Assembly (NCBI GenBank): GCA_009929795.1 | Contig: RZZR01000015.1 | Location: 1 to 32,833, forward strand | DNA from: Deltaproteobacteria bacterium | Lineage (GTDB): Bacteria > Desulfobacterota > Desulfovibrionia > Desulfovibrionales > Desulfomicrobiaceae | Direction: 5' to 3' | Length of the DNA stretch: 32,833 nt | Shown: one piece after another, positions 27,011 to 30,074 of the stretch | Layout of the letters: each line of letters begins with the position of its first letter | Position numbering within the stretch: position 1 is the first letter of the stretch | Notes under the pieces: model-generated | Database searches by the model: none | Told to the model about the DNA's origin: nothing | The model's input: the letters and a program-made list of their open reading frames with translations, nothing else | Position numbers and translations under genes: made by a program

Positions 27011-27053
27011 ATCCAAAACCTGAAGGAAAAAATTGCCGCCCGGAATCGACATT

Positions 27054-27659
27054 ATGAATATCCTTACCCCCCACGAAGCAGGCCTCGTCATCAAGGGTAT
27101 TTTTATCTACCCCACAGAAACCCTGTACGCAATCGGGGCAAATGTCGAGAATCCGCAGGCCATTATCCGCATTCAGGACCTGAAAGGCCGCCCTCTCGGA
27201 AAACCTCTCCCCCTGGTGACATCCCACGAGGGGCAGGCCAGGGAATGGTTCCAGCTCCAGGATCTGAGTCTGGAAGTGGCCTGGGCCTTCTGGCCGGGGC
27301 CCCTCTCCATCCTTCTTCGGCCCAGGCGGCATCTGCCCCCTGGAGTTTGCGGTCCCGACGGCATGGCCTGTGTTCGCATCCCGGCCCATCCTCTGGCCAG
27401 AGCCCTGGCCTCGTCCGTCAGGGCGCCCGTCGTCTCCACCAGCGCCAACTCTTCCGGGAATCCGGCCCCGGCCAGGGTCGAAGACATTGAACCGGCCATC
27501 AAGGACCATGTCGACTATGTCTTCACCGACCCTCCTTTTCCATACGGCGGGCCGCCCTCGACCATCGTGGCCGTTGTCGGCGACTCCCTGTCGGTGATTC
27601 GCGAAGGAGCCGTCTCCATCGCCGAAATCCAGGCCAAGGGATTTTGCGTCATGGTATAA
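27054..27659 (+). CDS. L-threonylcarbamoyladenylate synthase (YrdC/Sua5 domain)
   Basis: This is a 201-residue enzyme that makes the threonylcarbamoyl-AMP used for t6A modification of tRNAs reading ANN codons. The YrdC fold is clear: IFIYPTETLYAIGA at the start, KGRPLGKPLPLV for the KR(P/S)xxKP substrate loop, WPGPLSILLRPR, then VRIPAHPLARAL and STSANSSGNP, and finally PSTIVAVVGDSLSVIREGAVS. The C-terminal Sua5 domain is absent, as in TsaC. ATG at 27054 has only a weak site. TTG at 27033, seven codons earlier, has AAGGA at ideal spacing and may be the real start. Confidence 0.88.
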   Translation: MNILTPHEAGLVIKGIFIYPTETLYAIGANVENPQAIIRIQDLKGRPLGKPLPLVTSHEGQAREWFQLQDLSLEVAWAFWPGPLSILLRPRRHLPPGVCGPDGMACVRIPAHPLARALASSVRAPVVSTSANSSGNPAPARVEDIEPAIKDHVDYVFTDPPFPYGGPPSTIVAVVGDSLSVIREGAVSIAEIQAKGFCVMV

Positions 27660-27686: not shown

Positions 27687-27896
27687 TCATTCCTCGTCCT
27701 GATCGAAGTCTGAGACAAACCACTCGCAAACCCGCCTCTTCCAGTCCTCGATTTCATCCCGGTACTCGACCACCGGAACATCCGCCCCGCAAGACCTGCA
27801 GAGCACCCTGGCCTTGGCTCATCGTCCGATGATGTCCACCGACGCGCCGCACCTCAAACAATGGAGCTGTGGTTCGTTTTCGATATGTTCTGTCAT
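27687..27896 (-). CDS. Small zinc-ribbon protein with an in-frame UGA (candidate selenoprotein or nonsense-mutated gene)
   Basis: Sixty-nine codons read on the minus strand encode a compact protein except for UGA at codon 26 (27819-27821). Before it come HCLRCG (Cys13, Cys16) and VDIIGR; after it come AKARVLCRSCG (Cys33, Cys36) and a well-formed helix, YRDEIEDWKRRVCEWF, with an acidic end. The two CxxC pairs make a normal zinc ribbon only if the UGA is read through, so both sides belong to one gene. A SECIS-like hairpin follows the UGA (next entry). The ATG has no ribosome site but has TATCAT six nt upstream, so the mRNA may be leaderless. Reading as Sec, a recent CGA-to-TGA mutation and a sequencing error all remain open. 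No Sec-pathway genes are in the window. Confidence 0.5.
27785..27803 (-). promoter_or_regulatory. SECIS-like hairpin after the in-frame UGA
   Basis: In the minus-strand transcript, CUCUGCA pairs with UGCGGGG over seven positions (including G-U pairs) and presents a five-base loop, GGUCU. Fifteen nt separate the UGA from the stem, and 22 nt separate it from the loop. Known bacterial SECIS elements have the loop roughly 16-37 nt after the UGA with a G among its first two bases, and the E. coli fdhF element also shows GGUCU. The same bases encode the CRSC of the zinc ribbon, so the match could be incidental. Confidence 0.4.
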
Positions 27897-28213
27897 AACG
27901 ATATGATAAATCAGCGGTCACACCATTCGAAGCCAGGATGTTGATCTAGACTGTCCCGGGGCCGGGTCGTCAGGGCGGACCAACTCAACGCCCCAGAGGC
28001 CGGAATTCCTTCAGGCCGGATGTCATTTCTAACCGACGATCAATCAAAGGTCCTGGTCCAGACACGACCGTTCGCCGAACGCCTCGGCGTTGACCGTCCG
28101 ATTTCCCCCTCTCGGCGAATACTCATGTTCTTTCCGTCACAAGTCCTCATACTGCAGGCCGCAAAGCGTCTTTGTCCAGTCCCCGTCCACCCTCTGAATT
28201 TCAAGGAGCAGAC
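27897..28213. other. Gene-free stretch upstream of the acetate module
   Basis: No gene or RNA is recognised in these 317 nt. A nested palindrome, AACGCC-TC-GGCGTT (28078-28091), overlaps CGCCGA-ACGCC-TCGGCG (28073-28089) and runs into TTGACC (28090-28095), without a -10 at normal spacing. It could be an operator for the acetate operon. On the minus strand TTCGAA (27931-27926) and TATCAT (27908-27903) form a possible promoter with a 17-nt spacer for the zinc-ribbon gene. No sigma-54 site was seen. Confidence 0.35.
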
Positions 28214-28522
28214 ATGGAACACAAACACCCCGGACCCAAGATCGATCAGGCCCTCTTCCACAGGCTCGTGGTCGCAAAATGGAAGGTTTCCTTGACCCTG
28301 GCCGCAATCATGATGGTCGTCTACTACGGTTTTATTCTGGTTTTGGCCTTTGACAAGGAGCTTCTGTCCACCAAGATCGGGGAACATATGACCGTGGGCA
28401 TCCCCGTAGGACTTTTCCTTATCATCCTGGCCTGGCTCATCACCGGGGTCTATGTCTTCTGGGCCAACTCATCCTACGACCGGGCCGTGCAGGATGTCCT
28501 CAAAAGCATGAGGAGGCGCTAG
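28214..28522 (+). CDS. yjcH: DUF485 membrane protein, ActP partner
   Basis: This is a 102-residue inner-membrane protein with two hydrophobic helices (about residues 28-50 and 62-87). The DUF485 family nearly always sits directly upstream of an ActP-type acetate permease. The sequence [32 protein letters not shown] is typical. ATG at 28214 follows AAGGAG; an earlier in-frame TTG lacks such support. It ends one nt before actP. It may help assemble or regulate the permease; the mechanism is not established. Confidence 0.9.
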
Positions 28523-28523
28523 A

Positions 28524-30074
28524 ATGGACCCGAACTTCGTCTCCACCATCGGCCAACCCAACGCCACGTCCATCATCTTTTTTTTCGTCTTCATCACCGC
28601 CACGCTATTCATCACCTATTGGGCGGCCAAGAAAAGCCGTTCCCCCTCCCAGTTCTACGCCGCCGGCCGCAGCGTGACCGGCCTTCAGAACGGCTTGGCC
28701 CTGTCCGGGGACTACATGAGCGCGGCCTCCTTTCTGGGCATCGCCGGCCTGGTCTCCCTGAAGGGCTACGACGGCCTGATCTACTCCATCGGCTTCCTGG
28801 TCGGCTGGCCCATCATCATGTTCCTCATCGCCGAACCCCTGAGGAACCTCGGCAAGTTCACCTTTGCCGACGTTGTCGCCTACCGCCTGAAACAGAAACC
28901 CATCCGCATCGCGGCATCCCTGGGATCCCTGATGACCGTGGCCTTCTACCTCATCGCCCAGATGGTCGGATCAGGTTCCCTGGTCATGATGATCTTCGGC
29001 ATCCCCTATGAGTACGCCATCGTCGCCGTGGGCCTGGTCATGATCACCTATGTCCTTTTCGGCGGAATGCTGGCCACGACGTGGGTTCAGATCATCAAGG
29101 CCGTGCTCCTGCTGAGCGGGGCCACGGTCATGGTCGTCTTTGTCCTGGTCCATTTCGGATTCAGTTACGGGGAATTGTTCAAACAGGCCGCCGTGAAGTA
29201 CGGCGACGCCGTCCTTCAGCCCGGGGGCCTGGTCTCCAACCCCTGGGACGCCGTATCCCTGGGCATGGCCCTCATGTTCGGCACGGCCGGACTGCCCCAC
29301 ATTTTGATGCGCTTCTACACCGTGCCCGACGCCAAGACCGCCCGGACATCAGTATTCTACGCCACCGGATTCATCGGCTATTTCTACATTCTGACCTTCA
29401 CCATCGGCTTCGGGGCCATGGTCATCGTCGGCCAGGACGTCATCTCCGGCATGGACAAGGGCGGGAACATGGCCGCACTGCTCCTGGCCGAGGCCACCGG
29501 GGGGACGATGTTCTTGGGCTTTATCGCCGCCGTGGCCTTTGCCACCATCCTGGCCGTGGTCGCCGGCCTGACCCTGGCCGGAGCCAGTACCCTGTCCCAC
29601 GACCTCTACGTCAACGTATTCTGCACCGATGGAGCCACCGAGGAACAGGAGGTCAAGGTGGCCAAGCGGGCCACCCTGGCCCTGGGTGTTCTGGCCATCG
29701 TCCTGGGTCTGGCATTCAAGGGCCAGAACGTGGCCTTCATGGTCGGCCTGGCCTTTGCCATTGCCGCCAGCGCCAACTTCCCGGCCCTGCTCCTCTCCAT
29801 CCTGTGGCGGAACTTCTCCACCGTTGGAGCCACAGCCAGCATCTACACCGGAACCATTCTGGCCGTGGGCCTCATCGTCATCAGCCCCACGATCTGGATG
29901 GATGTCCTCCATAACCCGACGGCTATCTTTCCCTTGAAGAATCCGGCCATAATCTCCATGACCGGGGCCTTCATCGCCGGATACCTGGGATCGGTTCTCC
30001 GACCCGATCCCGACGCCTCAAAAAAATACGAGGACCAGAAGATCCGCAACTACCTCGGTGTCGGCGCCGAGTAA
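28524..30074 (+). CDS. actP: Cation/acetate symporter ActP (sodium:solute symporter family)
   Basis: This is a 516-residue permease with about thirteen helices that brings acetate or related short acids in with a cation. It has the family's signature region: [34 protein letters not shown] (residues about 40-75), and later [22 protein letters not shown] and [27 protein letters not shown]. The distribution of Ser and Gly in the pore helices is normal and no part is missing. The adjoining DUF485 gene supports acetate over proline or pantothenate. Together with the CBS-DUF294 gene it forms the acetate module; there is no acs gene here. Confidence 0.92.

Follow-up and report, generated by a model that had tools for sequence, protein, structure and literature searches.

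A predicted dual-CXXC selenoprotein of the GxU subfamily from the bacterial family that includes Desulfomicrobium

Small proteins in which two CxxC motifs flank a selenocysteine (Sec, U) or a cysteine are covered by the NCBIfam model NF041197, "dual CXXC motif small (seleno)protein". Table 1 of a 2026 review holds exactly two entries under this accession: OS_HP3, with the motif RxU and dated 2007, and hypothetical protein DW, with the motif GxU (PMC13188914). DW is a deep-Sep prediction of 2025 made in Desulfosarcina; its homologues carry either TGA or Cys, and a SECIS element accompanies it (PMC12013277). Two further kinds of protein come into the comparison: (i) the Lar restriction-alleviation family (PF14354 / TIGR03655), whose members, like the protein described here, are small zinc ribbons; and (ii) the two-knuckle zinc ribbons of the LysW and RNA-polymerase types, which gave its best, though weak, sequence and fold matches. 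OS_HP3 reportedly comes from Zhang and Gladyshev 2007. To our knowledge, Sec is not part of the LysW-type or RNA-polymerase-type zinc-ribbon families.

We analyzed a stretch of 32,833 nucleotides (the window, meaning the whole stretch) from a genome whose family includes Desulfomicrobium. A 69-residue GxU-type coding sequence lies on its minus strand (27687..27896), with the start ATG at 27896-27894 and the stop TGA at 27689-27687. Translated from 27896 to 27687 with TGA as U, it reads MTEHIENEPQLHCLRCGASVDIIGRUAKARVLCRSCGADVPVVEYRDEIEDWKRRVCEWFVSDFDQDEE-stop. The layout is CxxC-x9-UGA-x6-CxxC: a first knuckle, CLRC (C13 and C16, codons 13-16, 27849..27860); Sec26, encoded by UGA codon 26 (27819..27821); and a second knuckle, CRSC (C33 and C36, codons 33-36, 27789..27800). 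This translation confirms the 69-codon frame with a single UGA between two C-x2-C motifs that an earlier note on this DNA had described; the frame and its coherent zinc ribbon were borne out, and we add the strand, minus, which the note did not give. On both strands of the window, CxxC-x(4-14)-U-x(3-10)-CxxC has a single match. We put the probability that the UGA is decoded as Sec and that the gene is a GxU member of NF041197 at about 0.93. By every sequence test the locus reads as a true selenoprotein gene, and one that would be ordinary in kind because its family had already been predicted. We note that a standard ORF caller would end the gene at 25 residues; reading the raw sequence caught what appears to be a true Sec codon.

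With C in place of U, the window protein scored 40.8 bits against NF041197, above the cut-off of 40, and a six-frame genome search with the UGA read through gave 31.6 bits for the same locus. Scores of the GxU members that were scored straddle this cut-off (29.7-42.6 bits, most just below it). The RxU core of the model scores 63-84 bits (50-74 in another search), as against 30-43 for GxU. All 23 members of our alignment A1 matched the model at E <= 0.001, and the CxxC motifs on either side of Sec or Cys are preserved throughout (C13, C16, C33, C36 and U/C26 invariant). Gly occupies U-2 in 71/71 GxU members and Arg in 22 of the 23 RxU paralogues; the window protein has Gly, not the Arg of OS_HP3. 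The OS_HP3 core resembles the window protein in its CxxC-x8/9-U-x6-CxxC spacing and its C-terminal Cys, but differs in having Arg for Gly at U-2 and in mostly ending PCDR[VLI]. A long branch with support of 100/100 divides the two subfamilies in a 53-column tree. DW shares with the window protein the NCBIfam model, the GxU motif, Sec with Cys homologues, a SECIS and the phylum (Desulfosarcina); the two were matched by accession and motif, not by direct sequence comparison. Because Gly at U-2 is invariant and NF041197 has an entry with the GxU motif, we file the gene as a probable new member of the GxU subfamily (hypothetical protein DW). The suggestion of an undescribed family therefore fails: NF041197 exists, and GxU was published in 2025 as hypothetical protein DW (PMC12013277; PMC13188914 Table 1). 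To a family predicted earlier by others we thus add a well-supported member, widespread in the phylum (Desulfomicrobium and relatives). New points are the wide distribution, the use of two different SECIS positions, the conservation of a C-terminal Cys, and the prediction that the zinc ribbon carries Sec at its tip. The Lar models fit less well: although 16/23 members matched PF14354 at E <= 0.01 (best 5.7e-6), the window protein reached 12 of the 28.6 bits set as the cut-off for PF14354, and 18.9 of 39.6 for TIGR03655. Sequence and fold searches of the PDB returned weak zinc-ribbon matches, none significant (Foldseek E >= 0.085).

An AlphaFold2 model (mean pLDDT 82, pTM 0.58, 8 sequences) takes the form of a zinc ribbon with strands at residues 19-23 and 30-33, a turn at 24-29 that holds residue 26, and a C-terminal helix at residues 42-65 (27702..27773; mean pLDDT 82). 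Sec is carried by the modelled turn, in support of its proposed place in the loop between two metal knuckles. The four cysteines would most likely hold one structural zinc, and the working residue would be Sec, carried at the tip of the beta-hairpin that links the knuckles. Across the 71 members, the residues around Sec follow I-x-G-[RTKN]-U-A-x-A-[RK] (I-x-G-R-U-A-x-A-R in the window), with Ala at U+1 in 55/71, Ala at U+3 in 65/71 and Arg or Lys at U+4 in 63/71. By these counts the AKAR segment beside Sec, which had been thought unusual, is a signature of the family. A Cys follows the second knuckle in 61/71 GxU members, mostly 21-26 residues on and mostly in the helix region. Its counterpart in the C-terminal helix of the window protein is Cys57 (27726..27728), which the Cys counts among homologues mark as a candidate resolving or metal-binding thiol. 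The RxU paralogues carry a C-terminal Cys at a fixed place after the second knuckle (26 residues on) in 21/23 cases. In two RxU loci, L109 and L126, Sec has changed to Cys and the C-terminal Cys is gone (NTYADRI and NTYVDRI), whereas other Cys forms retain it. The joint loss in these two loci hints that the two residues may cooperate.

We hypothesize that the protein functions in Sec-dependent redox or metal handling. Its selenol might be the nucleophile in thiol/selenol redox, or might handle soft metals or metalloids, with Cys57 as partner; we hold this proposal tentatively, at a little under even odds, and the Cys of the proposed pair is missing in 10/71 members. A second reading, which concerns function only and is compatible with Sec decoding, makes Sec a metal ligand or donor site and the protein a metal or metalloid chaperone. 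It draws on the lack of a CxxU or UxxC redox pair, on the position of Sec between two CxxC knuckles and on how common the C-terminal Cys is, but the modelled Sec sits at the hairpin tip, past both strands from the knuckles, and ligation of the ribbon zinc itself therefore looks unlikely in the model. On balance we judge the chaperone somewhat unlikely. We are more doubtful again that GxU proteins, with a tip-of-ribbon Sec, neither CxxU nor UxxC, and a Cys partner in the C-terminal helix, carry out a new selenol chemistry with a function distinct from that of RxU. Being conserved and 69 residues long, the protein would be an easy target for learning the role of Sec on a zinc ribbon.

If the UGA were instead a true stop, the conserved stretch would work as a switch in regulation or as a peptide of 25 residues. 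A UGA subject to Sec recoding can terminate under selenium shortage, the gene is tiny, and a clear Shine-Dalgarno sequence was not found upstream of the ATG. Against this, the protein after the UGA is conserved equally to the part before it (C33 and C36 invariant, and helix residues E50 and K53 nearly invariant, in alignment A1), and Cys homologues read straight through the site. Hence we consider termination as the normal fate of this codon very unlikely.

Decoding as Sec is also what the residue at this site in other genomes points to. We searched whole genomes for homologues, translating through stop codons. Matches were found in 31/61 relatives, nearly all with one TGA, and some of these matches are the RxU paralogue. 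A profile built from the 23 members of alignment A1 matched 59 of 395 phylum genomes, 50 with an in-frame TGA and nine without, again with the RxU paralogue among them. Two of the nine, L081 and L082, belong to the GxU subfamily and have Cys (TGC) at the site: CGGETFIQGKCDHSKVVC. The remaining seven match weakly (24-30 bits); L027, the one that was read, is an RxU paralogue with Cys. Our search patterns were centred on the CxxC motifs, so that members lacking a knuckle escape detection; members with a residue other than Sec or Cys at the site remained detectable by the profile searches (61 relatives; 395 genomes). In a scan of genome contigs, the window protein alone as query gave no matches and the mixed alignment was too diverse for use; a closer alignment found eight loci, one of them (L108) a chance-like match of 25 residues. 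Altogether, position 26 is U in 69, Cys in 2 and any other residue in 0 of 71 distinct GxU members, which come from many families of the window's phylum and one Acidobacteriota locus and include Desulfomicrobium, Thermodesulfatator autotrophicus and a Thermoanaerobaculales MAG. An ordinary zinc-ribbon gene that had acquired a nonsense mutation (e.g., CGA to TGA), the rival that the earlier note had raised, or that contained a sequencing error would look identical as a lone in-frame UGA in one genome, but this view is refuted by these homologues, by the absence of Arg from all of them and by the covariation of the SECIS, and its chances are negligible. In the 53-column tree the two Cys members are nested within Sec members, and the Cys state is therefore probably derived, a tentative placement given the few columns.

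A hairpin on the minus strand at 27784..27804 is a predicted bacterial SECIS (bSECIS) of 8 bp. Read from 27804 to 27784, it is GCUCUGCA-GGUCU-UGCGGGGC, with a folding energy of -12.3 kcal/mol; dinucleotide shuffles of the 24-nt stretch put this at z -3.5. The stem begins 14 nt and the apical loop GGUCU (27792..27796) 22 nt past the UGA, close to the 7 bp and 16 nt that had first been estimated. The codons of the second CxxC knuckle also form the apex of this element. Its likeness to the loop of E. coli fdhF was correctly noticed, as fdhF has TGCAGGTCTGC past its UGA and the window TGCAGGTCTTGC. Published constraints on bSECIS elements are a loop of 3-9 nt with G in its first two positions, a stem of 4-16 bp, a distance of 16-37 nt from the UGA and an MFE <= -7.5 (PMC13188914). 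The window hairpin falls within all four of the published criteria (5-nt loop GGUCU, 8 bp, 22 nt, -12.3 kcal/mol), and the expectation of a SECIS 3' of the UGA was upheld both by the fold and by covariation across species. Against protein-preserving codon shuffles the same hairpin is borderline (p 0.085); a 50-nt context shows no excess stability (z +0.49), and another fold competes there. An Rfam search for SECIS or other RNA gave no matches. The hairpin of the window gene is not decisive by itself, whereas at the family level the alignments make it, in our reading, clearly decisive.

The family evidence is as follows. In a gap-free alignment of 54 sequences, the window-type stem is paired in 84.3% of cells, and shifting the partner by 1-3 columns leaves 31.7-54.9% paired. 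Both sides have changed in 55 cells (24.6 in shuffles), and covariation scores 0.337 for this stem and <=0.120 for slid structures. This set leaves out 13 sequences with a different stem, a split made after the sequences were seen. The 13 (L059, L060, L063, L064, L068, L072, L073, L076, L077, L079, L087, L088 and L097) share an alternative stem, GGUAAG-GUGU-CUUACC, which pairs at 100%, shows full compensation at one pair, lies about 5 nt nearer the UGA and uses different codons of the shared protein motif. They belong to families f34 and f70, the latter including Thermodesulfatator. Under protein-preserving codon shuffles, the hairpin reached p<=0.05 in 34/69 genes (mean z -1.8). The hairpin is degraded in both Cys members, L081 and L082, which retain 4-5 of 8 pairs, fold at -1.9 and -2.8 kcal/mol, and lack a G at either of the first two positions of the loop.

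The window's own genome has the machinery for Sec insertion: tRNA-Sec (81 bits, anticodon TCA), SelA (602 bits), SelB (388 bits) and SelD (336 bits). The SelD gene has an in-frame UGA in the motif GUAAK; it is thus a selenoprotein itself (L047, contig C34:21880-22800, VKAAGUAAKISPGD). All of selA, selB, selC and selD, whose presence had been named as a check, are accounted for. A SelB match (E <= 4.5e-103) was found in 50/50 UGA-bearing phylum genomes; SelB is frequent in the phylum, with 353/395 genomes passing its cut-off, so this co-occurrence is consistent but weak support. Together, the conserved UGA or Cys, these genes and the covarying hairpin support the earlier note in its central claim that the UGA encodes Sec. 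We propose that SelB carrying Sec-tRNA would bind the hairpin, with its loop starting 22 nt downstream, so that UGA codon 26 is read as Sec. In the absence of this action of SelB and the hairpin, translation would end at 25 residues.

The gene stands alone in the window, convergent with 27033-27659 (+), which we take to be YciO/Sua5-like from its sequence, and divergent from a pair at 28172-30074 (+), presumably DUF485-like and acetate-permease-like. Plasmid and phage searches gave no matches. In six loci from Desulfomicrobium and relatives (L004, L101, L102, L103, L104 and L002), the upstream gene ends in VLEGIQQL or VVEGIQQLE and usually overlaps or adjoins the selenoprotein gene; this gene, by its appearance presumably Tim44-like, is absent from the window. 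Neighborhoods are otherwise variable among homologues and therefore lend no context support for a function, and we rejected them as a clue. Within the window's family, the RxU paralogue is usually retained in the same genomes as GxU. The paralogue in the window's genome (L084, contig C150:743-859, minus strand) has its own in-frame UGA and reads MIDRRFSLSRPSQPPTGPPCPACGRNLDLIRHURGVVLRCRSCRADYPLEAFGPELSLAVEEWLADMPCDRI.
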